DNA of 64,000 bases from Halorubrum sp. 2020YC2. Its GTDB lineage: Archaea; Halobacteriota; Halobacteria; Halobacteriales; Haloferacaceae. Location of the stretch: assembly GCF_018623055.1 (NCBI RefSeq), contig NZ_CP076019.1:2542001-2606000 (forward strand), read 5' to 3'. The translations under genes and the position numbers were made by a program. The first letter of the stretch is position 1, and each line of letters opens with the position of its first letter. Positions 590 through 27,377 of the stretch are shown one piece after another. Below the pieces are notes generated by a model. That model saw only the letters and a list, made by a program, of their open reading frames with translations. It did not search any database and was not told where the DNA came from.

Positions 590-590
590 A
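559..590 (+). promoter_or_regulatory. TATA-like box, probably leaderless promoter of the first cluster gene
   Basis: The box tttag at 561-565 lies about 27 nt before the ATG at 590, the spacing expected for a haloarchaeal leaderless transcript. No Shine-Dalgarno sequence precedes the ATG, which fits. Confidence 0.45.
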
Positions 591-2278
591 TGGACGTGGA
601 CCGCTTCGAGGGAGTTCAGTCGGGGATTGCCGAGCGGACTGAGCTGGCTTCCGAACCGGGGACGACCGCGGTCCCTCCCGAGGGCGTCCCGAGCGTTGAA
701 TCCGTCGAGAGCGTCGTCGGCGTTACGGGCGGATACACCCTGCTCGCCGCCGTCAGCGCCGCGGTGCTTCTCGTAGTCGCGGTCGGTGCGCTGGTCGTGT
801 ACCGCCGCCGGGCCGCTGACACGTCCGGCGGCCGCTCGGCGTCTCCGACGAGCGGCGGCGCCTCGGGCGGTGGCGGCGCGACCGTCGACCGAGACGGAGG
901 AACAAGCGGTGCGACCGAGCCGGATGTCAGCGAGTCGAACCGGTCGGACGGTAGCGGCGCGAACACGGGCGGCGCGAGCACGGCGTTCGACGACCGGATC
1001 GGCGATCGGACGCTCGACCGGCTCGAACCGGTTGCGCCGGACGCGGTCTCGCGAGTCCGTGACCGGCTCCCGCTTGGTCGGAACGCGGCGCCGAGCGCAG
1101 TCGACGCCATAGAGCGTGACCTCCGGGAGGCTGTCGAGGACGCGCTCGACGAGGGGCTGTTCGACCCGACCGTGACCTCGCCGCTGGGCGGGACCTACGA
1201 CGTAGTGAACCTGCCGAGCCGATTCCGCGAACTGACGGTTCCTCCCGAGGGCGAGACGGTCCACGTGGCGGATCTGGAGGGAGTCGTCCGCGACGCGCTC
1301 TCCGGCCGGGACCTCCACGAGGCCGCTCGAACCATCGCGGCGGTCCACGAGCACTGTCAAGAGATCGAGTCGCACATCCGGCGCCGCGAGGGATCGTACC
1401 TCGAAACGCGACGAGAGGCGGAGCGGACGCTCGAGGACATCCAAGAGATGACCGACCGATTCGACGGCGCCCTCGCCGACCGGGTTCGAGAGTTCGTCGT
1501 CGACGGGCGGCACGAAGCCCTCTCGGGTGTCCGCGACATCGAGCGACAGATCGACACCGCGGACCGGTCGCTCCACGCCTGCGCGTTCGACGATGCCGAA
1601 CGGACGATCCGCGACGCCGAACGAGCGGGCGACGACCTGCTGATGGCGGTCGATTTTCTCGGCGGTGTCACCGGAACGATCGACCACGGAAGCGGCCGGG
1701 TCAAGCTTCCGGAGAGAGTGGACGACGCGTTCGTCGCCGATCTCGTGCCGATCCTCGAACGACAGTACACCGTCGGCGTCGAGCTCGACGGCGACGAGAT
1801 CGTCGTCAGCGGCGGCGAGTCGTCGCAGTCCGAAGGGCGCGGCTCCGTACGCTCCGGCGGCGGGGGCGGGTCGCGTCCCGGCGGCAGCGGATCCGGTTCC
1901 GAGCCCGGGGCTTCCGGTTCCCCTTCGTCCGGTGATTCGACAGGGGGATCGAAGCGGGAGAGAAGCGGTGGACGTGAACAGCTCACGCCGGACGCGGTCG
2001 CGGACGAGATTCTCTTCGTGCTCCGAGAACTCGACGATCGGGGCGGGAACGGCGCCGTCGAGTGTCAGACAGAGCTGCTTCCCGACGCGGTAGCGCGCCG
2101 CGAAGTGCTCGAACCGCTGGCGACGTTCTGCCGGCGACAGACGGACCTCGTGGCGTCCGTGACGCTCCAAGAGAACGCACCCCCGGGCTTCTTCGAAATC
2201 GAGTTCACGGAGGGGACCACCGCGTCCGCCGGGCTTAATTCGCTCCGGAAGCGGTTTACTGAGCGACACGGAGGGTGA
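590..2278 (+). CDS. Single-pass membrane protein with long cytoplasmic helical domain, tubulin cluster
   Basis: The 562-residue protein has no cleavable signal peptide. It has one hydrophobic segment at about residues 49-71, followed by arginines, which predicts N-terminus outside and the bulk inside. A Gly/Ser/Asp-rich linker (about 76-130) leads to an acidic, mostly helical domain (about 135-400). A second Gly/Ser-rich linker (about 408-462) leads to a compact C-terminal domain of about 95 residues with mixed helix and strand. That last domain loosely resembles the C-terminus of the protein encoded at 8991 (a VLR-type helix, then a hydrophobic strand near the end), but this needs a profile search. 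It is the first gene of the plus-strand arm and lies directly upstream of the first tubulin-like gene. No family is recognised. A role as a membrane tether for a cytoplasmic filament is inferred only from topology and neighbours. Confidence 0.85.
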   Translation: MDVDRFEGVQSGIAERTELASEPGTTAVPPEGVPSVESVESVVGVTGGYTLLAAVSAAVLLVVAVGALVVYRRRAADTSGGRSASPTSGGASGGGGATVDRDGGTSGATEPDVSESNRSDGSGANTGGASTAFDDRIGDRTLDRLEPVAPDAVSRVRDRLPLGRNAAPSAVDAIERDLREAVEDALDEGLFDPTVTSPLGGTYDVVNLPSRFRELTVPPEGETVHVADLEGVVRDALSGRDLHEAARTIAAVHEHCQEIESHIRRREGSYLETRREAERTLEDIQEMTDRFDGALADRVREFVVDGRHEALSGVRDIERQIDTADRSLHACAFDDAERTIRDAERAGDDLLMAVDFLGGVTGTIDHGSGRVKLPERVDDAFVADLVPILERQYTVGVELDGDEIVVSGGESSQSEGRGSVRSGGGGGSRPGGSGSGSEPGASGSPSSGDSTGGSKRERSGGREQLTPDAVADEILFVLRELDDRGGNGAVECQTELLPDAVARREVLEPLATFCRRQTDLVASVTLQENAPPGFFEIEFTEGTTASAGLNSLRKRFTERHGG

Positions 2279-2390
2279 GCAGTCTGGAACGCTGTCGAAG
2301 TTCTGTCAACTGCCGGTAACAAAATCGGGGGAACCAACCGCGTCCGTAATGTTTTATGTATCTCCGTGACCGCTCATACGTTATCCTAAC

Positions 2391-4019
2391 ATGACCGACA
2401 TCTGTAAGATCTGTATGCAGCGCTCGGACAAGTGGGCGGGCGAGTCGCTCGTCGAGCACTTGGCCCGAGCCCACGCGGACGAGCCCGCATCGGTCGAGCA
2501 GGTGTATCCGGACCGCAAGGAGGCGGCGCTGTCCGGGGACGGTCCCGCCGCAGACGATCAGGACAACGCGACCGATTCGACGGACACCGGCGAGTTCGGG
2601 CGGGCGGCGACGCCAGCGCCCTCGGGAACCGAGACGCCGAGCGACGATCTGATGGACGATGCCTACGGGAAAAAGTGGTACCTCGTCGGCGTTGGAGGCG
2701 CGGGCAACAACATCCTCGACGCGATTCTGCTGCGACGCGCGACGCTTGAGGAGAACAACGAGCGTCGCGCTCGGATCTGGCAGGGCGGGTTAGCGGGGTA
2801 CGGGCTGTTGAACACTAACGTCAGCGAGCTCGAACAGACCTACTACGCCCAAGAGGAGAAGGGGTACAGCCGTAACGACCTCCTCCCCAACTGTATCATC
2901 GGCTTCGGCGAACACGACTACGCCGGCGCCGGCTACCGGTGGGACCTCGGACGCGACCTGATTGAGGCCGACTTCGCCGCCGACGCCGACCCCTTTCGGG
3001 AGCGGTGGGACCTCAAGGGCGAGCGGCTCCGTGACTCACAGGCGGTGATGTTCGTCCACAGCGTGACCAAAGGCACCGGCTGTGGCGCGACCCCGGTCCT
3101 CGCCGAGAAGCTCCGCGAGAAAGTGCTCGACGATGGAATCGTCTCGAAGCCGCTGTTCAGCAGCGTCGTGATCCCCTCGGAGGGGACCCAGTACTCGGAG
3201 TTTGGTGGCCGCGCGAAGGTGAACGGCGTCGTCGGTCTCGCCCGCACCTCCCGGACCGTCGACGCGATCATCCCGTTCGATAACAAGCGGCTGGAAGACG
3301 TGGGCGCCGATATCCGCCCGCGGGTCGACCGGCTCGGCGAGTACAACCCACCACAGTACGTCGAGGTGAACAAGCCGCTCGTGGCCTTCTTGGAGGCGTT
3401 CACGATGTCGTCGGTGCCGCAGTTCCTTGACCGCGACGCGACGATGTCGATCAAGGGAGACGTGTTCGACCCGGCCGACAGCTTCCGCCCGGTTCAAGAC
3501 AAGTACCAGCGCGACCCAGACCGGGACTTCTCACCCGCGGTAGTGCTCGCGCCGGTACTCGGCCGATCGCGAGCGAACACGTTCGACAAGTCGAAGCTGG
3601 AGCTGCTCGTTCGGAACGCGCTGTTCCAGAACAAGCTTGCCGAGTTCGATCCGACGACGGCGTGGGGCGGTACCTTCCTCGTGTACGGTCCCGAAGGGAA
3701 GATGCAGGAGGTCTCCGAGCTGATAGGTGACGGCACTCTCGCGGGCATTATCGGCGACGAGGAGTTCCTCGACGCCGGTCGCTCGACCGGGATCGAGTCG
3801 GTGGACATCCACATCAAACAGCTCGTGACGCCGTACCTCGACGACGTGTACCTGTGGGGGACGCTGTGGAACCCGGAGATGCCGTCGATCGAGACGATGT
3901 ACGACCACGCGCTGACACTCAAACAGGAGGGGAACAGCGAGCAGGCCGAGAACGTCCGCGAGGTGTGGGACGAGGTCGAGGCGCTGTTCTCCTGTCTCGG
4001 CCGGGAAAATATGGCGTGA
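2391..4019 (+). CDS. Divergent tubulin/FtsZ-superfamily GTPase with N-terminal C2H2-type zinc finger
   Basis: The 542-residue protein begins with a zinc-finger-like motif: Cys5-x2-Cys8-x14-His23-x4-His28. An acidic disordered linker runs to about residue 92. The GTPase fold follows, with the nucleotide loop GVGGAGNN at 100-107, an NTN strand end at 141-143, and a tubulin-signature-like KGTGCGA at 227-233, where the usual first Gly-Gly are Thr/Lys. FDNKR (296-300) sits where FtsZ contacts the base, and Asp357-x2-Asp360 matches the T7 loop that completes the active site of the next subunit. These features place it in the tubulin superfamily, probably near the Tubulin_2-type families rather than canonical FtsZ or CetZ. 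The zinc finger could bind a partner or nucleic acid. The T4 deviation may change GTP hydrolysis. A TATA-like gttttatg lies at 2349-2356, so it may also be transcribed on its own. Confidence 0.88.
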   Translation: MTDICKICMQRSDKWAGESLVEHLARAHADEPASVEQVYPDRKEAALSGDGPAADDQDNATDSTDTGEFGRAATPAPSGTETPSDDLMDDAYGKKWYLVGVGGAGNNILDAILLRRATLEENNERRARIWQGGLAGYGLLNTNVSELEQTYYAQEEKGYSRNDLLPNCIIGFGEHDYAGAGYRWDLGRDLIEADFAADADPFRERWDLKGERLRDSQAVMFVHSVTKGTGCGATPVLAEKLREKVLDDGIVSKPLFSSVVIPSEGTQYSEFGGRAKVNGVVGLARTSRTVDAIIPFDNKRLEDVGADIRPRVDRLGEYNPPQYVEVNKPLVAFLEAFTMSSVPQFLDRDATMSIKGDVFDPADSFRPVQDKYQRDPDRDFSPAVVLAPVLGRSRANTFDKSKLELLVRNALFQNKLAEFDPTTAWGGTFLVYGPEGKMQEVSELIGDGTLAGIIGDEEFLDAGRSTGIESVDIHIKQLVTPYLDDVYLWGTLWNPEMPSIETMYDHALTLKQEGNSEQAENVREVWDEVEALFSCLGRENMA

Positions 4020-4093
4020 CCGGAAAGTCGGCCCGCGGGTAGTCTCTCCGGTGTCGCTTTCGTCTCTTCTTTTCCCTCGCCGCAGATATCTGA

Positions 4094-4142
4094 ATATTTA
4101 TGAAAAGTATTAGGGTTACTTACCAGACAAGTGACAACGATG
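4094..4142 (+). promoter_or_regulatory. Promoter upstream of the small ORF and the PH-domain gene
   Basis: An AT-rich stretch with atattta at 4094-4100 lies in the gap after the first tubulin gene. It is about 40 nt before an ATG at 4140 and well placed to start a new transcript. A pyrimidine-rich tract just before it (about 4060-4076) could end transcription of the preceding gene. Confidence 0.4.
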
Positions 4143-4316
4143 AAGAGGGATATTGTGGTACAAACGACGGTCATGCCGTCAGGGGAGGGCGTCTGTCGTC
4201 GCGGAGATCGAGCGGCGGACCTCGGAGACGCTACCAGTACGCACGAGTGGTCCGATATCGAAAAATCGATCTCGGCCGCTGAACCGGCCGCTCGCGCCTC
4301 GCGGGTGAGGAGGTAG
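4140..4316 (+). CDS. Possible small protein upstream of the PH-domain gene
   Basis: This is a 58-residue open frame from ATG 4140; an in-frame GTG lies at 4131. It ends 3 bases before the next ATG, and its last codons contain the GGAGGT ribosome-binding site for the next gene. That arrangement is typical of real overlapping haloarchaeal genes. The third-position GC bias is only moderate, and the peptide has no recognised motif: one Cys, many Arg and Ala, a short acidic middle. It could instead be a leader region. A competing frame from 4100 overlaps it and looks less protein-like. Confidence 0.35.
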   Translation: MKRDIVVQTTVMPSGEGVCRRGDRAADLGDATSTHEWSDIEKSISAAEPAARASRVRR

Positions 4317-4319
4317 CCC

Positions 4320-6284
4320 ATGTCCGAGGAGACGGGTCACGAGGCGAGTACGGCCGGGATCAATCCGCTCGACGGGGAGTCGGTGCTCAAGAACGTCCAT
4401 CCGTCTTGGATCAACTGGAAAGGACGGCTGTTCTTTGCCTTCTTTTTCGCGGTTATCGGGCTAATGATCGGAGGTGACGTCGGCGCGTTCTTCATTTTCC
4501 TTGGACTGCTTCAAGTTTTGAGTACCTTCCTTTCGCGCCGGGCGAGTCGGTACATCGTCACGAATCAGCGGGTGAAAGTAAAAATCGGCCTGTTGGGCTC
4601 GTCGACTCAGGAGGCCAGGCTGGACACCCTCAACGGCATCTCGACCAACTCCGGGTTCATCGAGGGGATCTTCGGGAAGGGCACCGTTTCCGTTACGGAC
4701 GCCGCCCGTGAGACGCTGGCGATCAAGGGTGTCGGGAACTATCAAGACCTTGCGCGGACGCTCCGCGAGCAGCAGCGACAGGCGTCACAGCCCGGCCGCG
4801 CCGGCCATCAACAGCAGCCGCCGGGCGGTCAGCAGTCGCAGCCCCCACAGTCGCAGTCAACGAGCGGCTCGGCCGCGAGCGGAGGTGACCCGCCCGCGAG
4901 CGATTCGGAAGCCGAGACCGACGAGGGGACCTCCCGCGAACGCTGCCTGAGCTGCGGCTCGCTGATCGACGACTCCGTGGGCTTCTGTCCGGAGTGCGGG
5001 ACGGAAGAACCGTTCTCTCCGTCCGCGGTGTCGGCGTCGGACGACGACGAGTCGGGATCCGCGGTTGACGACGCGTCGAGCGACCCGGAACCGGAGTTCC
5101 GCGACCACCCGGTCGTCGAGGCCGCGGACGCGATCGCAAGTCAAGAGCGTCCCGACGACGACGCGGCCCGGGAGCTCTGTCGGGTGCTCGCAGATCCCGA
5201 CACCGACAGGCACTCGGTCAAGTCGGCTCTGAGAGACGCTGTCGGTGCCATCGAAGAGGCGGAAGAGGGAGAGACGGAGACGGAGAGAAGCGTCCCCGAC
5301 GGGCTTGCCCGCCTCGGGGAGTCGCCGACCGCGAATCAGCTCGAATCCGCCCGCGGACGGCTGTTGCGCTCTAATCATCCCGCCGCGACCGCGACACTCC
5401 CCGTCGTGGATCGCGCGCTCCAGCTCGAGGCCGACCGCGACCAGGCAGCGACCGAACGGGACCACTACCGAGAGTCGGTCGAGTCGATCTGCGACGCGGC
5501 CGCCCGTAGCGGCGCCGTGAGCTTCACGGCTAGCGACCCCGACGCGCGCGCCGAAGAACTCGTCAAGGCCGTCGAGCGCGGTGACGCGGTCATCGAGTCC
5601 CCCGGAACCGCGTGGGAGTCCGTGGCCGCGGATATCGAGCGCTCGCAGCGACCGCAGACCGCCGAGGCGCGGGACCTCCTCAACGCGTTCGAGACGAACG
5701 ACACCGAGGAGATAACCGCCTCCCTCGGCGCCGCCGTGGAGGGGCTCGAAGAACTTGGCGAGCTCCGGTCCGGGATCATGGACATCGAGAAACGTGACAT
5801 CCGACGGCGGATCGATTCCCTAGAGGAGGAACTTGGCCGCACCGACGGCAGCGTCTACCGTCACCTCGCGGACCGGGTCCGCGAGCTGGAGGCGATGGCG
5901 AACGAGCCGGACGTCGACGAGGTACAGCTGTACGCCATCTACCAGGAGTGTACCTTCTACGATCGGACGCTCGTCCCGCGGCTCTCGCGGTCCGACGGCT
6001 CCTCGGAGAGCGTCGACGTCGCCCGACGGGCACGCGACATCGAGGATCGGATCGCGTCGATCAACGACGAGTACGTCTCGGTCCGCGCCGACCACAACCA
6101 CACCATCCCGAAGCACTTCCTCGACCTCGCCGACGCGCTCTGTGACCGGGCGCGGCGCATGGGCGATGAACAGCCCCATCAGGCGGCCGGGCAGCTCGCC
6201 GCCGCGAGCGATCTCCTCGACCACGTCGAAGAACTGTACGAGCGCAACGAGTACAGCGTGATGCTCCGTCGGCTGCGCGGCTGA
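4320..6284 (+). CDS. Bacterial-PH-like membrane protein with zinc ribbon and long helical C-terminal rod
   Basis: The 654-residue protein starts with a YdbS-like bacterial PH domain (bPH_2 type). Two adjacent membrane segments (about 36-51 and 54-70) are followed by the typical strand pattern and the end of the fold at about residue 140. A Gln/Pro/Ser-rich linker (about 151-205) leads to a zinc ribbon with Cys209-x2-Cys212 and Cys223-x2-Cys226. The remaining 420 residues are acidic and almost entirely helical, with repeated short helices ending in heptad-rich segments. bPH_2 domains sit at membranes, so this is probably a membrane anchor holding a long cytoplasmic rod. A strong ribosome-binding site (GAGGAGGT) precedes ATG 4320. 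The gene lies between two tubulin-like genes. The domain assignments are good; the role as a cytoskeletal adaptor is inference. Confidence 0.87.
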   Translation: MSEETGHEASTAGINPLDGESVLKNVHPSWINWKGRLFFAFFFAVIGLMIGGDVGAFFIFLGLLQVLSTFLSRRASRYIVTNQRVKVKIGLLGSSTQEARLDTLNGISTNSGFIEGIFGKGTVSVTDAARETLAIKGVGNYQDLARTLREQQRQASQPGRAGHQQQPPGGQQSQPPQSQSTSGSAASGGDPPASDSEAETDEGTSRERCLSCGSLIDDSVGFCPECGTEEPFSPSAVSASDDDESGSAVDDASSDPEPEFRDHPVVEAADAIASQERPDDDAARELCRVLADPDTDRHSVKSALRDAVGAIEEAEEGETETERSVPDGLARLGESPTANQLESARGRLLRSNHPAATATLPVVDRALQLEADRDQAATERDHYRESVESICDAAARSGAVSFTASDPDARAEELVKAVERGDAVIESPGTAWESVAADIERSQRPQTAEARDLLNAFETNDTEEITASLGAAVEGLEELGELRSGIMDIEKRDIRRRIDSLEEELGRTDGSVYRHLADRVRELEAMANEPDVDEVQLYAIYQECTFYDRTLVPRLSRSDGSSESVDVARRARDIEDRIASINDEYVSVRADHNHTIPKHFLDLADALCDRARRMGDEQPHQAAGQLAAASDLLDHVEELYERNEYSVMLRRLRG

Positions 6285-6312
6285 CGCCTGTCCGCGTACT
6301 GGTACGTCCACC

Positions 6313-6322
6313 ATCTTTATAA
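6313..6322 (+). promoter_or_regulatory. TATA-like box of the eight-gene operon starting at 6411
   Basis: The sequence atctttataat at about 6313-6323 is a good haloarchaeal TATA box. Initiation about 27 nt downstream would give a transcript starting near 6345, just before the short upstream ORF at 6355. From 6411 to 18556 no further intergenic gap is large enough for an obvious promoter. Confidence 0.5.
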
Positions 6323-6354
6323 TCTGATGTCTCAGTAATATCTGCTGTAGAGAC

Positions 6355-6414
6355 ATGTACGGTCCGATAACTACTTTCCCGAGCGGGCGTACGAACGAAT
6401 CACCAACTAAATGA
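6355..6414 (+). CDS. Possible 19-residue upstream ORF overlapping the second tubulin gene
   Basis: ATG at 6355 opens a 19-codon frame whose TGA (6412-6414) overlaps the start codon of the tubulin gene at 6411. It starts about 10 nt after the predicted transcription start. It could allow translational coupling or control of the operon. There is no independent evidence that it is translated, and such a frame can arise by chance. Confidence 0.25.
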   Translation: MYGPITTFPSGRTNESPTK

Positions 6415-7691
6415 CGTATCTATTTATCGGCGCGGGGCAAGCGGGGGGCGCTATCGTCGACGCGATCTTCGAGTACACCGACGATTCGATGCTCAGCCTG
6501 TTCGAGTCCACGGACATCTCGACGTTGGGTCGACCGTTGGTGTTCAACTCGACGATGCGGGACTTACAGAACCTCTCGAACGTTCCCGCGGAGGACCAGT
6601 ACGGGGTCGCACAGCAGCACGGGCTGGTACAGGGGATCGAGCCCGGCTTCGAGGAGATGGTGACGGGCGGGTTCGGCCGGAACCCGGTCGACGCCGATGA
6701 GGTGATGGGAGACCACGCCGACGAACTCCAGACGATCCTCGAATCGAAGTTCGGGGGGCGGACGTCTCCCGCCGCGGACGAGGAAGAGGTACCAGCGACC
6801 GACACCGACGCCATCCAGTTCGCGTTCCTGTTCGTCGGGCTTGGCGGCGGCACCGGGTGCGGGATCAGCCCGCACATCGCCCGCGGTATCAAGGAGTTCA
6901 CCGACGACCGGACGAAAGTCGTCGCCGTGGCCGTTCTCCCGAACACCCGCGGCGGGGTCGAGGACGACGAGACTGACGGCGAGGTCAGCGCGGGTCGACA
7001 GGCGTGGAACGCCCGGTACGGGCTCGACCGGCTGGAAGACGAGGTCGACGGCATCGTCCTCGTCGACAACCAGCGGATCTCGTACCTCGACTCGGCGGGA
7101 GGCGAGTTCGGCGAGTACAACGAGTACGTCGCTGCCGCGTTCCACGACATCGTCGTCGGACCGATGCTGAGCAACGTCGACGCCAGCGAGGTCGACGGCG
7201 TCGACACGCCCGACATCGACGTTCGCGACATCGTCACGTCGCTGTCGTTCGGCGTCGCCGGCGAGGAGTCCCGTGCGGGCTACGGCGCTATCGGTCGCTC
7301 CGTCACGATGACCCGGTCGCTGTCGGGGTACCTGCTGCCATTCGTCGGCCGCCGCGACATCGACAGCGCGGCGTTGGCGCGGCTCTCGGCGTCGAAGCAG
7401 TCGCTCGCCAAGGCCGACCCGAACGACGCCCAGAAGGCGATTGCGCTGGTCCGGGCGCCGAGCGCAAACATCGGGCCGGGCTCGCACAGTATCGAGACCG
7501 GGACGATCAAGGAGTACTTGGAGCGGAGCTGTCGGCTCAACGAGGTGAACCTCGGCGTCGCGCTCAGCGGCCGCAACCTCGCGTCGGTCGTGACGCTGTT
7601 AACGTACCGACGCGAGGACCTCGACCGGCTCGACGAGATCGAAGCCGCGGCCGACGCCTACGAACAGGAGACGGAGGAGCTGTTCGCATGA
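6411..7691 (+). CDS. Second tubulin-superfamily GTPase, CetZ/FtsZ-like N-terminus
   Basis: The 426-residue protein opens directly with the nucleotide loop GAGQAGG (residues 7-13), very like the start of CetZ and FtsZ. The tubulin signature GLGGGTGCG at 143-151 is intact. DNQR (219-222) corresponds to the base-contact region, and Asp268-x-Asp270-x2-Asp273 matches the T7 catalytic loop. An extra insertion of roughly 80 residues, acidic in part, separates the first two motifs compared with FtsZ. It is shorter and more divergent than haloarchaeal CetZ1/2 and lacks the usual FtsZ C-terminal tail. GTP binding and head-to-tail polymerisation are expected from the retained motifs. It is the first full gene of an eight-gene operon and overlaps the next gene by 4 nt (ATGA). 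Confidence 0.9.
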   Translation: MTYLFIGAGQAGGAIVDAIFEYTDDSMLSLFESTDISTLGRPLVFNSTMRDLQNLSNVPAEDQYGVAQQHGLVQGIEPGFEEMVTGGFGRNPVDADEVMGDHADELQTILESKFGGRTSPAADEEEVPATDTDAIQFAFLFVGLGGGTGCGISPHIARGIKEFTDDRTKVVAVAVLPNTRGGVEDDETDGEVSAGRQAWNARYGLDRLEDEVDGIVLVDNQRISYLDSAGGEFGEYNEYVAAAFHDIVVGPMLSNVDASEVDGVDTPDIDVRDIVTSLSFGVAGEESRAGYGAIGRSVTMTRSLSGYLLPFVGRRDIDSAALARLSASKQSLAKADPNDAQKAIALVRAPSANIGPGSHSIETGTIKEYLERSCRLNEVNLGVALSGRNLASVVTLLTYRREDLDRLDEIEAAADAYEQETEELFA

Positions 7692-7963
7692 CGCGGGCGA
7701 CGAAATCGCGGATCGCGGGCAGCGCGCTCGTCGCGGCGGCCGCGCTGATCGGGTTCGTCGGCGTCGTCGTCGGCGACGGCGGAAATCCGGTCAATCCCGC
7801 GGTGGATGCGTTAGAGACGGTAGAGATCGCCGCCACGCTCACCAGTCAGGTCCCGTTCCTCGCGGCCGGCGGCGCGCTGATAGGGCTCGGCGTCGGCGCC
7901 GTGATCGCGAGCGGCGCCACGTACTGGTACCAGAACAAACAGATCGGGGGGCGCCTCGAATGA
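7688..7963 (+). CDS. Small two-pass membrane protein
   Basis: ATG 7688 overlaps the stop of the second tubulin gene (ATGA), and its own stop overlaps the next start in the same way, so the start is well fixed. The 91-residue product has two hydrophobic segments, about 10-28 and 56-77, joined by a short acidic extracellular loop. It ends in a short cytoplasmic tail with Tyr, Trp, Lys and Arg. No family is recognised. The tight coupling to the tubulin gene suggests a stoichiometric partner, perhaps a membrane anchor for that filament. This is inference. Confidence 0.8.
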   Translation: MTRATKSRIAGSALVAAAALIGFVGVVVGDGGNPVNPAVDALETVEIAATLTSQVPFLAAGGALIGLGVGAVIASGATYWYQNKQIGGRLE

Positions 7964-8994
7964 CCGGGCGAGCGGGACGCTACCTGCTCGCGTCGCTGTG
8001 CTGCGTCGCCCTGCTCGCCGTCGTCGCGACCGGCGGCGCGGCCGGTGCCGGCCCGGAGAACTACTGCGAGGGGGTCGGTGAGAACGAAAGCGCCATCATT
8101 GGCGGCGTTGGCGACACCACCTACACCGACGACGTGACGCTCTACCCCGGATCGACCCTGACCGTCGGCTACTGCTCGTTCGGCGAGCCGGCCGACCGCG
8201 ACTGGCTGTCCAACGCCTCCGGGTTCGAGGTCGGGGAACGCGACGGCCACACCTACCACGTCACGATCACCGGCGAGACCGGCACCGTCGACTTCGCGGA
8301 CCACCTCGCCGACGGGGATCAGCCGTCGTTCGAAACGCGGCTCGTCGTTACCGTCGCCGGGGGCGGAGACGAGGCGGCCGTCCCCGACCTCGCTACCGGT
8401 GACGGGAATCTCACCGACACGTACCGGGGGTACCGCAGCGCGGTGCGTGAGACGGAGAACGCGACGGCGGCGCTGAACGAGACGACGAGCGCCATCAACG
8501 CGGGGGAGAGCGAGCCCAGTGACGCGAACAAAACGGTATACTCGCTGGAGGAGGAGTACAGGACAATGAATAGGACACGGGCAGAGCTGCTCGATCAACT
8601 CGGGTCGGCCGGTGAGGAGGGGAACGCGGCGGGCACCGTCTCGACCGCCGAGGCGGTCGACGACGAGTACGGACAGACGAAATCGAACGTGACGGCGGCG
8701 GCGAACGCGTACACCGGCGCCGTCGAGACGACGACGCAGGGGCTCCGCTCGACGGTGCGGCTCTCGGTGCTCGGGTCGCTGGGCGTCGGCGCGGTGCTCG
8801 GCCTCGTCGCCGGCGCGGCAGTCCCGCTGGTCGCCGCACGCCGCGTCAAAGAGAAGATGAAGCTGAGCCGCGACGTGAGCTACGACCGGAAGACGGCACT
8901 GATCCCGATCCTGCTCGGGGTCGTCGCCGCGGTCGGCGGGGCGGCGATCCTCGCCATGGTCGGGATCGACGACCTGCTCCGGGTGATAGTATGA
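7960..8994 (+). CDS. Secreted-domain membrane protein with extracellular helical region and two C-terminal TM segments
   Basis: The 344-residue protein begins with a signal peptide (about 1-31). A small extracellular beta-rich domain follows (to about residue 145, with Cys38 and Cys72 as possible partners), then an extracellular helical or coiled-coil region rich in N-glycosylation sequons (several N-x-S/T between about 150 and 250). Two membrane segments (about 265-290 and 308-333) flank a short Lys/Arg-rich cytoplasmic loop. It overlaps both neighbours by 4 nt. The topology puts most of the protein outside the cell, so the tubulin operon encodes surface as well as cytoplasmic components. 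Family not recognised. Confidence 0.83.
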   Translation: MTGRAGRYLLASLCCVALLAVVATGGAAGAGPENYCEGVGENESAIIGGVGDTTYTDDVTLYPGSTLTVGYCSFGEPADRDWLSNASGFEVGERDGHTYHVTITGETGTVDFADHLADGDQPSFETRLVVTVAGGGDEAAVPDLATGDGNLTDTYRGYRSAVRETENATAALNETTSAINAGESEPSDANKTVYSLEEEYRTMNRTRAELLDQLGSAGEEGNAAGTVSTAEAVDDEYGQTKSNVTAAANAYTGAVETTTQGLRSTVRLSVLGSLGVGAVLGLVAGAAVPLVAARRVKEKMKLSRDVSYDRKTALIPILLGVVAAVGGAAILAMVGIDDLLRVIV

Positions 8995-11087: not shown

Positions 11088-11090
11088 CCA

Positions 11091-12320: not shown

Positions 12321-12329
12321 TCCAGTAAG

Positions 12330-15254: not shown

Positions 15255-15255
15255 A

Positions 15256-18556: not shown

Positions 18557-18606
18557 TTCAGGAGAAATATCCGAGGACTTTTTACCAGACTGCCTTCGCG
18601 ACGCCG
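18557..18606. terminator. Convergent junction of the two arms with T-tract
   Basis: Only 50 bases separate the stop of the last plus-strand gene from the stop of the last minus-strand gene. A run of five T at 18579-18583 is a plausible archaeal U-tract terminator for the plus arm. No stable hairpin was seen. Confidence 0.4.
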
Positions 18607-21600
18607 TCAGTTCTCGCTCCGCGGCGGCGTCGAGACCCGCGAGGGGAACTCGAGCGACGGCGTTGCGGCGTCGATCCGGTCGATCGACCACGCGGCGAGG
18701 AGGTCGGCGGTCCACGCGGACTCGTCGTCCACGGCGGGCCCGGCGGCGCGGGCGACGTACTCCTGCTCGGTCCCGTCGACCGCGTACGAGACGGTGGCCT
18801 CGAAGCCGGGCTCCGTGTACCCGGACTCGAGGTCGACGTAGTGCTCGATCCGATCGCCCGGCTCGACGCGCTCACGGCGGGCGGGCGAGTAGAACATCGA
18901 GTCGATCGGGTCCCCGTCGGCGACTACCGAGACGTCCGTCAGCGGTTCGTCGCCGTCGTTCTCGAACACGAGCACGACAGAGCTGTACTCGCCCGCGACC
19001 TGGGTGTCCGAGCTGATACCGGGTGTCAGCGCCGGCTCGCCGCCGTCACTAGCACCCGCCGCGTCGCCGTCGGCCGCCGCCAACACGTCGATCCGACGCT
19101 CCTCGCCGTCCGACTCGATCCAGAAGGAAACGGGGACGGCGTCGCCGGGCGCGGGACGTTCGCCGACCGTCGCCGAGACGGTTCCGCTCGCGCCGGCGTC
19201 GACCGCGGTCGAGAGCGACGCTCGACCGCCGTCCGGTCCGGGGTCGACGCCGGTCACGCGACACTGCCGGTCGGTGCCGTTCTCGACCACGGCCGTGAGT
19301 GCCCCGTCGTCCGGATCGACTGTTGCCAGCACCCCGATCGCGTCGTCGCTCACCGAGAGCTGCCGGGCGTCGACCTCGCTGACGACCTTCCCGCTCACCT
19401 CAACCGCAGCCGATGGGAGGGTGAGTTCACCCGCCTCGCCCGCGGCGACGAACCGGTCGACGGACGCGGCCGCACCGCGGTCAAGGCGGCCGAGAGAGAG
19501 GTTATCACCGTCGTCGAAGGCGATCTCGACTGACTCGACCGGCTCGCCATCGTTCTCGACAACGATCCGATCGCGGACCGCGTGGCCGACCCCGGGGGCG
19601 CGCTCCGGAGCGCGTCGCGTCGCCGACAGGGACGGTTCACCCCCGGTCCCGCTCTCCGACCGACCTTCGGTCGGGCCTCCGACCGAGGACTCCGTTCTGT
19701 CCTCGGCGGTTTCCTCCGAATCACGGCTCGACTCCCTCTCGGCCCGATTCGTCGTTGATGACGACTGTCGGTTCCGGTCACTCGTCCGCTCGTTGGATCG
19801 ATTTCGGCTGTCCGCCGCGTCTGCCGAGCGATTCCGACTCTCCGCCACCTCGTCCGACCCGCTCCGCTCCGAGTCACGAGCAGGGGATGAACCGGTCTCC
19901 GACGGATCACCCGTCGAAGCGGTCGACCGGTGGGGGGTCGTCGACTCGCCCGACTCGGACGAGTTCGGCGACCGCCTCGTCCCTCCGGTTTCGCGGGACG
20001 ACCGCGACCGGTCGCGGTCGCGACCGCCGGCCGACGAGGACGTTGTGAACGTCCCGTTCCCGGGGACTCGGACGCGCTTCTCGGCGTCGAGTGCGTCGAG
20101 CGCGATCCGGGCGACCCCCGACTCGTACTGCGGGACGAGGAGCAGCAGTTCGTCGCCGTCGATCGTCACCGGGGACCGCACACGACCGGCGCCCGGCATC
20201 TCTACCACGAGCCGGTCTTCGACCGGAACGCCGTCAGCGACGGCCACGGTCGCCCGCAGTGCGTCGCGCTCGACCGCCGCGTCGATTGTCGGCCGAGACG
20301 GGAGCGTACACGTGGGGGCGTACTCCCGGCGGCGGTCGCCGCGTGTCACCTCAAGCCCGACAGAGACCCGGGTTTCAGGCTCGTACGGCCGGGTGACCGT
20401 ACCCTCCCACGCGTCGCCCGGCGCGATGTCGGTCGCCTCGGTGCCGGCCTCCAGCAGCCGGACCGCGTCGAGTGGGACGCCCCCGACGTTCTCGACCGTC
20501 ACACCGATCTCGGCGACGCCATCGTCGATCCGCGCCGCGTGTAGGACCGTCTCGACTGCCAGCCCGCCGCTCGCCGCGTCTTCGACCTCGACGGTCCCGC
20601 GCCCGACCTCGTCGCCATCGGCCGCAACGATCGCGTCTGCCCGCCCCTCCCGTCGCACCGACGCGACGGGGAAGTCGGCAACCGTAGAGTCCTCGCCGTC
20701 GATCGTCACAGTTCGCTCGGCGGGCGAGAGCGAGCAGCCGTCCACATCGAGCGAGAGATCGACCGTCTGCTCCTGCTCGGTCGGATTCGACACCTCCACG
20801 TCGACCGTGCCGCCGACCCCGACGGAGTCGGTGAGGACCGCCACGTCGATCCGATCGCGGTCGAGGACGTACGTCGCGATCGTTCCGTCGCGTACCGAGC
20901 AGACGACCGCCCCGTCGCCCGAAGCGTACACGTCGCCGGTCGAGAGGTCGGGGACCGTCTTGGTCACCCCGTCGGCCGTCACGTCGAGTACGCCGTCGGC
21001 CGCGCTGACCAGCACCGAGCCCTTCCCGACCGGTGCGACCTGTCGGGCGTCCAGCTCCGTGCGCCAGCGGTCCTCACCGCTTCCGCGGTCGAGACCGACG
21101 AGGCGGTCGCTCTGGAGCGCCGCGACCACGGTCCCGTCGCAGACGCCGACGCTCCGAACGACCGCCGAGAGATCCCGGTCGAAAGCGACCTCGCCATCGC
21201 CGTCCACCGCGGTGAGGAAAGACCACGTCGCGATCACGAAGCCGGTCGGCGTCGCGAGGAAGGCGTCGTCAGGCGTCCCCGGCCGGGTCCGGTCGACCGC
21301 GAACCGCTCGCGGCCGCCCGCGACCTCGACGACCCGGAGGGTATCGGCGTCGAGGATCCCGCAACACTCCCGGGACTCGGCACCGGCCACAGCGTACGCG
21401 TCTCCCGCGTCGTGGCTCCACACTTGGTCTCCGTCGAGCGAGTACGCCGTGAGCGTCTCCGGCGAGAGGACGAGCAGGCGGTCCGCCACCGCCAGATCGA
21501 GGATCGGATCGTCGTGGTCGATCGCGGTCCGCTCCCGACCGGAGACCAGCGTGACCCGGTCGTCAAGTCCGAACGCGATCACGTCGCGTCCGACCCCGAC

Positions 21601-21654
21601 CGCGGACGGGGGATCGCTTTCGAAGGAGCCGACCTGTCGGTAGCCGTCACTCAC
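18607..21654 (-). CDS. Cytoplasmic beta-propeller and Ig-like scaffold protein
   Basis: The start is GTG 21654, which overlaps the stop of the AAA+ gene and follows a GGAGGTGA site with 5 nt spacing. The 1015-residue protein has no signal peptide or membrane segment. Residues about 1-290 form PQQ-like propeller blades. One or more CARDB/Ig-like domains follow (about 290-530), then a disordered Ser/Arg/Glu/Thr-rich linker (about 531-680), then further Ig-like domains to the end. Such propeller plus Ig-like combinations are usually extracellular, so a cytoplasmic copy is odd and points to a protein-interaction scaffold. It is the last gene of the minus-strand arm and is translationally coupled to the AAA+ ATPase, a likely partner. 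Confidence 0.82.
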   Translation of the reverse strand: MSDGYRQVGSFESDPPSAVGVGRDVIAFGLDDRVTLVSGRERTAIDHDDPILDLAVADRLLVLSPETLTAYSLDGDQVWSHDAGDAYAVAGAESRECCGILDADTLRVVEVAGGRERFAVDRTRPGTPDDAFLATPTGFVIATWSFLTAVDGDGEVAFDRDLSAVVRSVGVCDGTVVAALQSDRLVGLDRGSGEDRWRTELDARQVAPVGKGSVLVSAADGVLDVTADGVTKTVPDLSTGDVYASGDGAVVCSVRDGTIATYVLDRDRIDVAVLTDSVGVGGTVDVEVSNPTEQEQTVDLSLDVDGCSLSPAERTVTIDGEDSTVADFPVASVRREGRADAIVAADGDEVGRGTVEVEDAASGGLAVETVLHAARIDDGVAEIGVTVENVGGVPLDAVRLLEAGTEATDIAPGDAWEGTVTRPYEPETRVSVGLEVTRGDRRREYAPTCTLPSRPTIDAAVERDALRATVAVADGVPVEDRLVVEMPGAGRVRSPVTIDGDELLLLVPQYESGVARIALDALDAEKRVRVPGNGTFTTSSSAGGRDRDRSRSSRETGGTRRSPNSSESGESTTPHRSTASTGDPSETGSSPARDSERSGSDEVAESRNRSADAADSRNRSNERTSDRNRQSSSTTNRAERESSRDSEETAEDRTESSVGGPTEGRSESGTGGEPSLSATRRAPERAPGVGHAVRDRIVVENDGEPVESVEIAFDDGDNLSLGRLDRGAAASVDRFVAAGEAGELTLPSAAVEVSGKVVSEVDARQLSVSDDAIGVLATVDPDDGALTAVVENGTDRQCRVTGVDPGPDGGRASLSTAVDAGASGTVSATVGERPAPGDAVPVSFWIESDGEERRIDVLAAADGDAAGASDGGEPALTPGISSDTQVAGEYSSVVLVFENDGDEPLTDVSVVADGDPIDSMFYSPARRERVEPGDRIEHYVDLESGYTEPGFEATVSYAVDGTEQEYVARAAGPAVDDESAWTADLLAAWSIDRIDAATPSLEFPSRVSTPPRSEN

Positions 21655-23398
21655 GGCCGTCACCTCCGATCTCCGCCTCGGCGGGGCCTTCGGGCGTGGG
21701 TTCATCCCCGGCGCGCTCACCTCCGGGCGTCGGTCCGCCGTCGCCGCTTCCCGTGCCGCCATCGCCACTACTGCCGTCCCCGCTCCCGCCGCTTCCGTCG
21801 TCTCCCTCTTCGGCGCTTCCGTCTCCGTCCCCGCCGAAGAGCTGTTCGAGCGACGAGGGTTCGTTGCCCAGCCGCATCTCCAGCCGCTCGGCCTGCTCTT
21901 CGACGTACCGCCGCAGCTCCGGGTACCCTTCGAGGTCGTCGATCTGGGTCCGGACGCTGGCGACGTACTGCCGGACCGTCTTGGGTTCGGTCTCTCCAAG
22001 CCGGTCTGCGAAGTAGTCGGTCGTCGGCTCGATCGGCTCCCGATCTGGGAGGTGGACGCTCTCGACGAACTCGCGCTGGAGCTCGCTTCCCAGCACGCGG
22101 TCGGCGATCTCCGCCGGGGTGTACCCGGTCGATAGCTCGCCGAGCCGGTCGTAGTCGATCCCGTCGGTCCCGTGCATCGACGCGAGGTGTTTCCGCCACA
22201 CCTGTGCCATCACCTCCGTCTCCGGCTGCGGGATGAACTGCTGGATAGGGAACCGGCGGGTGGCGGCCGGGTCGATGGTGAACGGCATGTTCGTCGCGCC
22301 GATCACCAGCAGGTTGTCCTCGATCTCGTTCATCTCTTGGAGGAACGCGTTGGTCAGCGAGCGCTCGTGGCGCTGGAGCGAGTCGTCGCCGCGGTCGGGG
22401 ATCAGCGTGTCGACCTCGTCGAAGAAGAGGACGGCGAACCCGTCCTGCGCGATCCCGTGTGCCTTCTCGAAGATCGCCTCCACGCGCTTCTCCGACTCCC
22501 CGGAGTACTTCGAGAGCACGTCGCTGCCCTTGATCTCGAGGAACTTCACCTCGCCGTAGCTCTCCTCGATGTTCGAGTTGTACTTCGCCTCGTAGGCGAT
22601 AGCCTCCGAGACGAGCGTCTTCCCGCAGCCGGGGGGCCCGTACAGCAGCATGCTGTTGCCGCGCGAGGCGAACTCGTCGCCGTAGCGGTCGACCACCTCG
22701 TCGCGCACGTCGGGGTCGAACAGCGCGAGCAGGTTCTCCGCCGTGCGCTTCACCTCTGGCAGCCCGGCCACGTCCTCCTCGAAGCTGACCGTCGGCTTCT
22801 TCGGTTCGAGCGACACCTGAACCGCCTCGTCGTCCCCCTTCTGCCCGCCGCGACCCTGTCCCCCCGTTCCCGGTCCCCTCGGTCGGGAGTCGGACATCGC
22901 CTTCTGCTCTCGGTACTCGCCGGTGTCGACGAACTCGATCTCGGTCTCGTCTGTCACGCGAACGGTGTTGTAGCCGGAGGGTTCGATCTCAACCGGCTCA
23001 AACCGACTCGGTCCCTCGTCGCGAGAGACGACCTCCTCGATGGGGTGGAGTAGGTAGTTGCTCTCACGGAGGAACGCCGCGATCTGTGACTCGTCCATCG
23101 CGGTGTGAATCGACACCGACTTACAGTCGGGAATCTCGGCCGGGTTGACATCCGTGTCAACGAGACAGTCCCGACCGCGGTGGAACCCACCGAACAGCTT
23201 CTCAACGTTTTCGTGGATCCGGAGATCGGTACCGATGTCGTCGACCAGCCGGTCGTCGACGGGTTTTACGTAGAAGTGGGCGCTTCGGTTTGCGTGTTTT
23301 ACCCGCACGAGCTCGGTCGACTCTCCGACTTTCGAGGCCCCGATCTTGACGTGTGAGGTAGGCTGGCCCGAGAGGACAACCGGCTTGAGATTAAGCAC
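21647..23398 (-). CDS. AAA+ ATPase with CDC48/VCP-like N domain
   Basis: GTG 23398 is chosen as start because it overlaps the upstream stop; GTGs at 23404 and 23407 are alternatives. The 583-residue protein has an N-terminal region (about 1-160) whose pattern, a double-psi-barrel-like half then a strand-rich half ending in an acidic D-E-T-E-I motif, resembles the CDC48/VCP substrate-binding N domain. After a Gly-rich linker a single AAA+ module carries Walker A GPPGCGKT (254-261), Walker B FFDEVD (325-330), sensor ATN (368-370) and arginine fingers Arg381/Arg382. The tail from about 495 is acidic and Gly-rich. CDC48-type enzymes have two AAA rings; this has one, as in ESCRT-associated Vps4 or proteasomal ATPases. 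It is probably the remodelling engine of the cluster, for example disassembling filaments. This last step is inference. Confidence 0.9.
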   Translation of the reverse strand: MLNLKPVVLSGQPTSHVKIGASKVGESTELVRVKHANRSAHFYVKPVDDRLVDDIGTDLRIHENVEKLFGGFHRGRDCLVDTDVNPAEIPDCKSVSIHTAMDESQIAAFLRESNYLLHPIEEVVSRDEGPSRFEPVEIEPSGYNTVRVTDETEIEFVDTGEYREQKAMSDSRPRGPGTGGQGRGGQKGDDEAVQVSLEPKKPTVSFEEDVAGLPEVKRTAENLLALFDPDVRDEVVDRYGDEFASRGNSMLLYGPPGCGKTLVSEAIAYEAKYNSNIEESYGEVKFLEIKGSDVLSKYSGESEKRVEAIFEKAHGIAQDGFAVLFFDEVDTLIPDRGDDSLQRHERSLTNAFLQEMNEIEDNLLVIGATNMPFTIDPAATRRFPIQQFIPQPETEVMAQVWRKHLASMHGTDGIDYDRLGELSTGYTPAEIADRVLGSELQREFVESVHLPDREPIEPTTDYFADRLGETEPKTVRQYVASVRTQIDDLEGYPELRRYVEEQAERLEMRLGNEPSSLEQLFGGDGDGSAEEGDDGSGGSGDGSSGDGGTGSGDGGPTPGGERAGDEPTPEGPAEAEIGGDGRE

Positions 23399-24026
23399 TG
23401 TCACCACCCGCGACCGCGGTCGCGAGCGTCTCGACGCCGCCGAGCAGTGTCGCGGCCCCCTGGTTAGACATCCGTCGGGTATACCGCCCGACGACGAGCG
23501 CCGACGAGAGGGCGTCTTCGAGGGCGGCCAGCCGTTCTGCCACCGTCCAGAACATCGTCTCAACCAAGTCGGGCCCGTCGACACGGGCTCGGCGGTGAAC
23601 GCGTCGGAACCCGTCTCGAACGCGTTCCAGTCGTGAACACAACAGGTCTGCGAGCAGCCACCAGTTTCGGAGCGCTGGCATCTCCACGCCGACCGGGACT
23701 ATCACTCGGCCGTCGACCTCCGTGATTCGGTCCGCCTCACGCGCGTGCTCCAGCACGTCATCGTCGATCTCCGAGCCGAGTCCCGACTCCAGCCGATCGG
23801 CCAGTATCGTCCGCACGGCTTCGTCGCCCGCGGTCCGCTCCATGCTCTCGGCGCTGACGCGCGGCAACGCCACGGATGAGAGTTCACCGATGTCCTCAAC
23901 GGCGTCGACCGCATTGCCGGCGATTCGGAGTGCGGGTCCCGGGTTCCGAAACGTCTCGATCGCCAGCGCCCTGTCGAGGACCTCCTCAACCCGGTCGAGC
24001 GTCAGTACGAACGAGGTGGCGTACAT
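23391..24026 (-). CDS. Helical protein of unknown function next to the AAA+ gene
   Basis: ATG 24026 starts one base after the upstream stop. The 211-residue product is predicted all-helical, with no membrane segment, signal or recognised motif. Ala/Leu/Arg/Asp-rich amphipathic helices run throughout, and a Trp-Trp pair sits in the middle. Its stop overlaps the AAA+ start, so the two are probably made together. It may be an adaptor or substrate of the ATPase. Confidence 0.75.
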   Translation of the reverse strand: MYATSFVLTLDRVEEVLDRALAIETFRNPGPALRIAGNAVDAVEDIGELSSVALPRVSAESMERTAGDEAVRTILADRLESGLGSEIDDDVLEHAREADRITEVDGRVIVPVGVEMPALRNWWLLADLLCSRLERVRDGFRRVHRRARVDGPDLVETMFWTVAERLAALEDALSSALVVGRYTRRMSNQGAATLLGGVETLATAVAGGDSA

Positions 24027-24027
24027 G

Positions 24028-25059
24028 TTAAATCTGGATGTTCTCTTCCCCAGCCGCCCGCTCGGCGGTTTCGGCGACCTCGGAGAGTGCGCTCGCTTGG
24101 TCTTGGACCGTCTCGCCAAGATCTTCTTCGATCATCGCCTCGAGGTCGTCGCTGTCGACATCCTCTTCGTTTTCGGCCTCGACGCCGGCGAGGTCGTTGA
24201 TGAGGCTCCCCGCGTTGTCGACGAAGTTGAGCGCCTCCTCTGGGAACACGTTGTTCTGTACCGCCGCCTTGCGGGTATTGCGGTGGAACATGTCGTACGC
24301 CTCACGAGCGGCCTCCAGCCGGTCGATCGCCATTCCCATCTGGTCGAGACCGACGTTGACGTTCTCGAAGAGGTTCTCTTCCTTCGCCTTCTCGATGTTG
24401 CGCAGGTAGAGGTAGTGGCTCTTGAGTTGGTTAAACTGCTGGCGCTCCTCGTTACTGAGGGTTTCCGGGTCGGGAATCCCCTGCCCGGGGCCGAGATTCT
24501 GGAGGCGCTGTGCCGTTTTCGAGAGCCGCTCGTTGGAATCGGTCCGCTCGGTCTCCAGCTCGTCGATCGTCTCCTTGAACCGTTTTTTGGCGTCTTCAAC
24601 CCGTTCGAGGTGCTCGTCGATGCTCTCTATCACCGCCCCCATTAGTGCGGCCCAGTTCATCAGCGCCGCCCCGCCGAGATCCTCCTCATCGGGGTCGCGG
24701 AACAACACCAACTGGTCCCCCTCGATCCCAAGCACGTCCTCTTTCGCGAGATACTCGACCAACACGTCCGCCTGCTGTTCGCTAGACACGACCGTTTCGC
24801 CGTCGACGGTCGCACCGGCAAGCGCCTCGACCGCCTTTCGCCGACTGATCCCACCGTTGCCGTTGGCGATATCGATCTGGTTTATCGTCTCTGGCTGGAC
24901 GATCTGTTTGATCAGGTCCTCCCACTTCCCCTCCATGTCGTCGCTCTCGATCCAGTCGGCTCGGACGCGGATCGGTTCGGAGGACTGGCCGCGCCCCTCC
25001 GCGATAACGAACTGCTGGCCGTTGATCGTTTTCGTTTCGAAGGAATATTTGCGAGTCAT
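24028..25059 (-). CDS. Coiled-coil protein with small N-terminal domain
   Basis: The 343-residue acidic protein lacks membrane segments. The first about 120 residues form a mixed strand/helix domain, perhaps winged-helix-like. A long helical hairpin or coiled coil follows (about 130-275), then an acidic C-terminal tail with short amphipathic helices (about 285-343). This layout superficially recalls ESCRT-III/PspA-like proteins, but charge and motifs give no proof. It lies one base upstream of the helical protein gene in the minus-strand arm. A polymerising or AAA+-substrate role is possible; function unknown. Confidence 0.78.
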   Translation of the reverse strand: MTRKYSFETKTINGQQFVIAEGRGQSSEPIRVRADWIESDDMEGKWEDLIKQIVQPETINQIDIANGNGGISRRKAVEALAGATVDGETVVSSEQQADVLVEYLAKEDVLGIEGDQLVLFRDPDEEDLGGAALMNWAALMGAVIESIDEHLERVEDAKKRFKETIDELETERTDSNERLSKTAQRLQNLGPGQGIPDPETLSNEERQQFNQLKSHYLYLRNIEKAKEENLFENVNVGLDQMGMAIDRLEAAREAYDMFHRNTRKAAVQNNVFPEEALNFVDNAGSLINDLAGVEAENEEDVDSDDLEAMIEEDLGETVQDQASALSEVAETAERAAGEENIQI

Positions 25060-25113
25060 TCGATAGTCGTTGAGTTTATATCAATCAGCCAATCCACATT
25101 ATTCCATCGGCTT

Positions 25114-26214
25114 TCAGAACTCCTCGTCGGCGACGATGGTTTCGTACCGGTCGATCACGGCCTCGCGGACGTGCTCGTTGACGCGGTTGTCGTGAGCGAC
25201 TTGGAGCTCCTCGAACTGTTCCTCGGCACGCTCGGTGAACTCCGACGGAGAGGCGAACACGTCGTACTCCCCTTTCACCTCGCCGAGGATCCGGCGCGCC
25301 CGCTCATCGACGAGCCGGTCGAAGGGCTCTTCGACCGTGACGATCTCCGGTCCCTCGGCGAGCCCCAAGCGGTCGACGAGCGTCGACCGCGTCTCCCTGA
25401 GGATATCCGTCCGGACGCTCCGCGCCGCCGACAGCACGTCGAACCGGGAGTCGATCGCGTTCTCCACGACCTGTTCAAACTCCCCGACGCGCAGCGCGTG
25501 GTTCGACTCCTCGAACTCCGTTTCAACGGTCTCCTCGATCTCGTCCGCGAGGAACTCCGCGTACTCGTCTATCGCCTCCTCAACGAGGTACTCGCCGTTG
25601 AGATCGACGATGTAACCCTCCCGGTCGAGGTACCGGATCACGTCAGAGGTGGCGTTCACGTCGATGACGCTCTCGAGGTCGCTGTGGGCGATCTTCCCGT
25701 TCGACGCCTCGCGTTCGAGCCGCGCGTCGAGCCCCACGTCGTCGGCGTGCTCCTTGAGCTTCGGGCCGATCGTGTAGTAGTCTCGCTTGCCCGCTGTGAT
25801 GCGGCGGAGGTAGTCGCGCTCGGTAAGCTCGTCGACAAAGAATTCAAGATCGTCGATCGCCAGCGAGAACCGCGAGCGGAGTGTCTCCCCAGTGACCACC
25901 AGTCGCTGGCCGAACAGGTTCGTCAACTCTCGCGTAATGTTCATATTCCCCTTCACGCCGAAGGGATCGACATAGTACACTCCGTCTCGAAGCTGGTCGA
26001 GGTCGACGAACTCGTCGGCTGACATCTCTGAGAGCGCCTTTCGCATATCGCTTGCGGCGAGCGATCCCGCGTTAAGCGTTCCAACGTCCGCGTTCTCGTA
26101 GCCGGACTTAATATCCGACTTCTGGTCCGCGACGTACACGAACCCGTAGTTGTCTTGGGCAATATCTCGACAGACGTCCTCGAGGACGTCCATATCCACC
26201 GGCAAAATCGTCAT
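25114..26214 (-). CDS. Tandem winged-helix-like protein, first gene of the minus-strand arm
   Basis: ATG 26214 is preceded by tttag about 27-31 nt upstream on the same strand, fitting leaderless initiation; longer starts lack this. The 366-residue acidic protein appears to contain several successive winged-helix units (about 40-230), judged from repeated helix-helix-helix-strand patterns such as D-L-x-F-F-V-D-E-L-x-x-R-x-Y-L followed by Y-Y-T. A helical C-terminal part (about 230-366) follows. No membrane segment. Tandem winged helices can bind DNA but are also common in protein-assembly scaffolds. No regulator family is recognised. Confidence 0.78.
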   Translation of the reverse strand: MTILPVDMDVLEDVCRDIAQDNYGFVYVADQKSDIKSGYENADVGTLNAGSLAASDMRKALSEMSADEFVDLDQLRDGVYYVDPFGVKGNMNITRELTNLFGQRLVVTGETLRSRFSLAIDDLEFFVDELTERDYLRRITAGKRDYYTIGPKLKEHADDVGLDARLEREASNGKIAHSDLESVIDVNATSDVIRYLDREGYIVDLNGEYLVEEAIDEYAEFLADEIEETVETEFEESNHALRVGEFEQVVENAIDSRFDVLSAARSVRTDILRETRSTLVDRLGLAEGPEIVTVEEPFDRLVDERARRILGEVKGEYDVFASPSEFTERAEEQFEELQVAHDNRVNEHVREAVIDRYETIVADEEF

Positions 26215-27336: not shown

Positions 27337-27377
27337 GTCGCGCCCGTGACTGAGCGAAGCGAAGGAACGGGCGCGAC
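27337..27377. repeat. Perfect 11-bp inverted repeat at the tRNA 3' end
   Basis: The 11 bases at 27337-27347 are the exact reverse complement of 27367-27377, with 19 bases between. The right arm is the end of the tRNA acceptor and T stem. Downstream of the tRNA the transcript could form a hairpin competing with the acceptor stem, or the repeat could be a recombination or termination site. Confidence 0.6.

Follow-up and report, generated by a model that had tools for sequence, protein, structure and literature searches.

Genes at the locus

The window, the whole stretch of 64,000 nucleotides that was analysed, belongs to a 3.06-Mb single-contig haloarchaeal genome and carries at positions 590-26214 a module of 16 genes in two convergent arms (Table 1), 11 genes on the plus strand (590-18556) and five on the minus strand (26214-18607). 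The original prediction had described 17 tightly packed genes in two convergent arms. The cluster is real, as its order recurs in relatives, and its arms do meet at 18556/18607, but the conserved set is 16 genes. The spacing is tight, -17 to +9 nt, across 7688-18556 and 18607-24028, but this does not hold for the first four plus-strand genes, which are separated by gaps of 112-300 nt, nor for cc and wh, which are 54 nt apart. The sixteenth gene, 7688-7963, was absent from the first ORF list; it overlaps each neighbour by 4 nt, and a small membrane gene is found at this position in 14 of 20 relatives and in two annotated plasmids (H. salinarum and Natrinema). The AAA gene starts near 23407 and not at 23584, and no support was found for a possible 59-aa frame upstream of 4320. 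Comparison of relatives places the HTH gene at 26433 and the MMPL gene at 27468 outside the module.

Membrane topology was assigned by hydropathy, which gave eight membrane proteins, seven of them larger and one small, in agreement with the membrane proteins predicted earlier; the one described as bPH-like indeed has a bPH_2 domain. Several of these proteins have large outside domains and several have cytoplasmic coiled coils. The vWA and OmpA partners that had been said to be absent were likewise not found in the module proteins by a Pfam domain search. Directly to the left of the module (L009:4206-8320, reaching into window positions 1-320) are genes for a Dam-type methylase, an Mrr-like endonuclease, HNH and AIPR, which make up a restriction/abortive-infection cassette. 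A tRNA-Arg(CCG) gene at 27368-27440 adjoins the right end. Integration at this tRNA was considered and rejected: the 3' end of the tRNA is not repeated on the left and the module ends have no flanking repeat.

Table 1. The 16 genes of the module with their positions in the window
Gene	Position	Strand	Features
A_coil	590-2278	+	single TM helix (42-73) followed by an acidic, helical part in the cytoplasm; ortholog at same place in 18/20 relatives
TubA	2391-4019	+	tubulin-superfamily GTPase; N-terminal C2H2-like Zn motif; SVTKGTGCG; T7 Asp D360/D363; PF00091 46.7 bits; alignment A5
bPH protein	4320-6284	+	TM region, bacterial PH domain, zinc ribbon, helical rods; PF03703 29.1 bits
TubB	6411-7691	+	tubulin-superfamily GTPase; GLGGGTGCG; T7 Asp D270/D273; PF00091 55.3 bits; alignment A4
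Small membrane protein	7688-7963	+	two helices, 91 aa; position conserved, overlaps
TM7960	7960-8994	+	signal-like helix, external domain, coil, two C-terminal TM helices; HMM matches in divergent relatives
rod	8991-11087	+	two TM helices at the N terminus, a long helical rod of acidic character, a weak Ig-like domain and a C-terminal domain; 20/20 relatives
TubC	11091-12320	+	tubulin-superfamily GTPase; TLGGGTGNG; T7 Asp D242/D245; PF00091 36.6 bits; alignment A3
Ig12330	12330-15254	+	signal-like helix, external part with Ig-like fold, a pair of TM helices, prealbumin-like Ig domains in the cytoplasm, helices; 20/20 relatives
mem15256	15256-16281	+	N- and C-terminal TM helices, external helical domain; 20/20 relatives
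surf16265	16265-18556	+	signal-like helix, Ig-like repeats, helical part, C-terminal TM; 20/20 relatives
BP	18607-21654	-	N-terminal beta-propeller and Ig-like domains, soluble, no TM; H. salinarum ortholog annotated PQQ-like beta-propeller
AAA+ ATPase	21647-23407	-	one AAA domain behind ~200-aa N-terminal domain; Vps4/Cdc48-like; PF00004 111 bits
g	23391-24026	-	small helical protein encoded immediately upstream of the ATPase gene, the position of the Halo_adaptin ESCRT-III/PspA-like gene; alignment A11
cc	24028-25059	-	beta/winged-helix N-terminal part, long coiled coil; AF2 model pLDDT 79
wh	25114-26214	-	tandem winged-helix array; AF2 model pLDDT 88.8

The three tubulin-superfamily GTPases

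TubA, TubB and TubC all scored above the curated cut-off of PF00091, and in a joint alignment the T7-loop Asp pair of all three aligned with the catalytic pair of FtsZ1 (NLDFAD). The pair is invariant over all rows of alignments A3-A5 and is E/D in the distant TubC of G431. The altered TubA signature KGTGCG is invariant in 19 rows, and the N-terminal C2H2-like motif of TubA is kept by most rows. Judged from their sequences, the three are true tubulin-superfamily proteins, as had been claimed for them. A profile search against structures, a check suggested with the original prediction, gave matches to FtsZ, CetZ, TubZ and tubulin structures, those of TubA being only weak ones; the best matches of TubB and TubC were archaeal CetZ and tubulin-family structures (4b46 and 4b45, which are Haloferax CetZ). 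TubB and TubC are thus like CetZ in their best profile matches and in the conserved T7 acidic pair, whereas in the tree none of the three groups fell inside the CetZ clade: TubA, TubB and TubC are three separate clades, each on a long and well-supported stem, distinct from FtsZ1, FtsZ2 and CetZ, and unlike CetZ they lie within a 16-gene operon pair. The tree is silent on whether the three arose from one another because long branches meet. In the FtsZ equivalog test (TIGR00065, cut-off 295 bits) they reached 34, 34 and 18 bits. Tubulin_2 (PF13809) had no match in the window's own genome, with TubB at 14.8 of 27 bits. Five other tubulin-family genes are present elsewhere in this genome. G047 has a TubC-like paralog that stands alone, is degenerate and lacks the GGGTG signature (L116:10241-11440).

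The AAA arm

The minus-strand arm has the order wh-cc-g-AAA-BP. The earlier identification of an AAA+ ATPase was confirmed by its PF00004 match and by profile scores of 124 bits for CDC48 and 114 bits for CdvC. It has a single PF00004 domain and no MIT match in a Pfam search; its N-terminal domain resembles CDC48_2 weakly (E 0.18) and had no useful match in a PDB profile search. There was no Pfam match for BP or for the 23391-24026 protein, and PDB profile searches with cc and wh gave nothing useful. The wh model matched UFL1 (2.5e-7), SelB (1.9e-5) and ESCRT-II (1.2e-2) in Foldseek, and the UFL1 match is read as a common winged-helix array and not as a common function. A weak similarity of cc to PspA was found (8.6e-4). 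Assignment of cc to ESCRT-III by its fold was rejected: Foldseek gave no significant match and the VIA rows were generic long helices. No component reached the family threshold for ESCRT-III, PspA, Vps4_C or the MIT domain.

Distribution and transfer of the module

The same gene order was found in 20 fetched 40-kb regions of relatives; the order is thus shared by about 20 haloarchaea from several families, and this is not chance. This was the outcome of the proposed synteny search for the three GTPases with the AAA+ protein, and the neighbours, instead of occurring independently of the GTPases, as the original prediction had allowed might prove to be the case, travel with them. A clear TubB ortholog was present in 21 of 194 Halobacteria genomes besides the window's own. 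It was present in none of 21 other sampled genomes of the same genus, and three same-genus cases appeared later in the full family set. TubC was found in 20 of the 21 family genomes that have wh; for G062 there was TubB adjacency only. The mean identity of the window copies to those of other families was 0.71 for TubB and 0.76 for TubC, and to those of their own family 0.50 and 0.52. The distances of all components of both arms were correlated (r 0.77-0.97). The higher identity to other families together with the correlated distances indicates that the unit moves as a whole, and this movement is horizontal and partly on plasmids. Among plasmid records, TubC and wh occur together in Natrinema, Halobaculum and Halobacterium salinarum R1 (PHS2); the PHS2 copy has every component and the Natrinema plasmid copy has the same layout. 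A virus origin was rejected, since neither phage records nor viral contigs contained a relative. Just upstream of A_coil, five genomes of another family have a Hel308-like helicase gene (L040:13111-15477, L045:13020-15377 and three more), and G449 and G532 each have wh and TubC in two copies.

Separable arms and pairing with FtsZl1

In three genomes of genus g3 (G017, G060 and G097) the AAA arm is kept though it is 75-260 kb away or on another contig, and in G017 the full relocated set wh-cc-g-AAA-BP was read. Adjoining this relocated arm are two CetZ-related genes in tandem (L117:1159-3489). Two of the 20 genomes, G041 and G047, keep TubB/TubC and have no TubA, A_coil, bPH or AAA arm. Beside TubB-TubC they have a 1157-aa protein above the cut-off of Tubulin_2, the FtsZl1 family, accompanied by membrane proteins with P-loop motifs, like the GTPase partner of FtsZl1. 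In G080, A_coil-TubA-bPH is convergent with FtsZl1, a membrane GTPase and a propeller protein, and the AAA arm is absent. The FtsZl1 swap rests on these three genomes; most haloarchaeal FtsZl1 loci examined have FtsZl1 and the GTPase only. G431, a genome that does not belong to the class, carries rod-TubC-Ig together with surf, mem and an AAA of the Cdc48 type. That the AAA arm is separable and is still kept when elsewhere on the chromosome is apparently new, and so, apparently, is the pairing of tubulin sub-modules with FtsZl1 and a membrane GTPase, which links two predicted membrane-remodelling systems.

Relation to previously predicted systems

The original prediction held that the system was separate and probably undescribed, and this has to be given up. 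Makarova et al. (2024, mBio, PMC10936438) predicted an ESCRT-like system, 'Halo_adaptin', with a vesicle or protein-sorting role, typified by Haloquadratum walsbyi (published example WP_014555335.1). As described there, it has an MIT-less Vps4-like AAA whose N-terminal domain is VAT/Cdc48-like, two winged-helix genes, one of them with a coiled coil, a PspA/ESCRT-III-like gene immediately upstream of that for the ATPase, two propeller-Ig adaptin-like proteins, more Ig proteins, a membrane protein and a CetZ-like protein. This description is matched by the AAA arm of the window together with the Ig, propeller and CetZ-like proteins that accompany it: the MIT-less Vps4-like AAA, the winged-helix genes (wh and cc), a gene upstream of the ATPase, a propeller-Ig protein, other Ig proteins, a membrane protein and a CetZ-like protein are common to both, and the order wh-cc-g-AAA-BP fits. 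The H. walsbyi C23 locus (G014) has orthologs in order through both arms, including all three tubulins. From this component match and orthology the locus is, on the sequences and the published description, the Halo_adaptin-type system gene for gene, and the system was therefore already predicted. The differences are that one CetZ-like protein is named in the main text of that paper whereas three tubulins are found here, that two propeller-Ig proteins are described and one (BP) was found in the module, and that for the PspA/ESCRT-III-like gene the window has a gene at that position (23391-24026) but the weak PspA similarity is only in cc. On the Natrinema plasmid another propeller gene lies close to the module (L205:37108-38847) and is possibly the second propeller protein of Halo_adaptin. 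Relative to the prediction as published, the additions made here are apparently the number of tubulins, three, arms that can be separated and exchanged, the swap with FtsZl1, the transfer of the module as one unit and a tractable host.

The FtsZl1 (Tubulin_2, PF13809) membrane-remodelling system of Makarova and Koonin (2010, PMC2875224) likewise has a tubulin-superfamily GTPase with membrane partners, and an FtsZl1 arm is found beside the sub-modules in the three genomes above, so that separateness from FtsZl1 does not hold either; the window, in contrast, has no PF13809 protein, vWA, OmpA, kinase or P-loop GTPase partner. The Halo.Tub group of Santana-Molina et al. (2023, PMC9871819), described as a Halobacterota tubulin-like group with several quasi-tandem copies, is likened to TubA, TubB and TubC by that description, the likeness being in tubulin-like copies beside coiled-coil genes. 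Literature searches, supplements aside, found no experimental work on any member of the locus.

Proposed function and alternatives

A membrane-linked cytoskeletal or membrane-remodelling role, as originally suggested, appears to be the best reading of the sequences. What we consider reasonably probable is a Halo_adaptin-type ESCRT-like system with three tubulin-superfamily GTPases, in which a membrane-anchored tubulin scaffold and AAA+-driven turnover would serve membrane remodelling or surface-protein sorting. Held in place by the bPH, A_coil and rod proteins, TubA, TubB and TubC would assemble into GTP-dependent filaments beneath the membrane, and the Ig, mem and surf proteins would couple them to outside cargo or structure. 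The winged-helix and coiled-coil proteins would nucleate an ESCRT-III-like assembly which the AAA+ ATPase would disassemble, with the propeller-Ig protein as adaptor, and the cytoplasmic membrane would as a net effect be remodelled locally (budding or surface-protein sorting). The ESCRT-III step is the weakest part of this proposal because no component reaches the ESCRT-III/PspA family threshold. The proposal is supported by the tubulin fold and active-site conservation, the strict gene order in about 20 genomes, the occurrence of TubC in 20 of the 21 family genomes with wh, the AAA arm kept at a distance in the three g3 genomes, the correlated arm distances, the Halo_adaptin component match, the orthology to the H. 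walsbyi locus, the wh fold like that of UFL1/SelB/ESCRT-II and the weak cc-PspA similarity. Against it, the AAA arm is missing from two of the 20 genomes although TubB/TubC are kept there, and also from one more genome that keeps TubA and has FtsZl1 in place of the arm; the cc model, too, had no significant fold match.

A somewhat unlikely alternative is a machine for cell shape or a surface structure, in which a stable tubulin scaffold positions external Ig-like proteins for adhesion, cell contact or mating bridges and the AAA+ protein only recycles parts, with no fission or sorting. CetZ1 controls cell shape, and the nearness of TubB and TubC to the CetZ structures by profile, the outside Ig-like proteins with a C-terminal TM and the patchy accessory distribution would agree with this; however, TubA is clearly apart from CetZ in the tree, and the soluble arm of winged-helix, coiled-coil, AAA+ and propeller proteins fits the ESCRT-like plan as described in 2024 (PMC10936438). 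That the module is a mobile defence or conflict gene set assembling on infection is very improbable. It is mobile and patchy, it abuts the Dam/Mrr/HNH/AIPR cassette in the window, and GTPase-tubulin conflict systems that include vWA and FNIII parts have been described in bacteria (PMC7159879), but elsewhere the genes that flank it are ordinary ones for housekeeping or transport, the only PADLOC matches among its components were generic AAA ones, and it has no nuclease, protease or toxin. Least probable of all is plasmid or DNA segregation of the TubZ kind, for which the copies on five haloarchaeal plasmid records would speak, but most copies are chromosomal, the module has eight membrane proteins, and no ParB- or TubR-like gene was found alongside.

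A wider version of the ESCRT-like proposal, which we hold only tentatively, is that of a haloarchaeal modular multi-tubulin family in which the sub-modules A_coil-TubA-bPH and TubB-rod-TubC-Ig-mem-surf plug into an exchangeable arm, either the ESCRT-like AAA+ one or FtsZl1 with its membrane GTPase, with the propeller-Ig protein as common adaptor. If true, TubA, TubB and TubC would be co-assembling tubulins that work with ESCRT-like membrane remodelling in a prokaryote. The origin of the joint action of tubulin and ESCRT-like ATPases on membranes is an open question in how eukaryotic cell biology arose, and the module unites an ESCRT-like arm with three tubulins in a single gene set that can be transferred and is linked to the separate FtsZl1 prediction. 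Halobacterium salinarum R1 is genetically tractable, and since its plasmid PHS2 has the complete set, the module is genetically testable.
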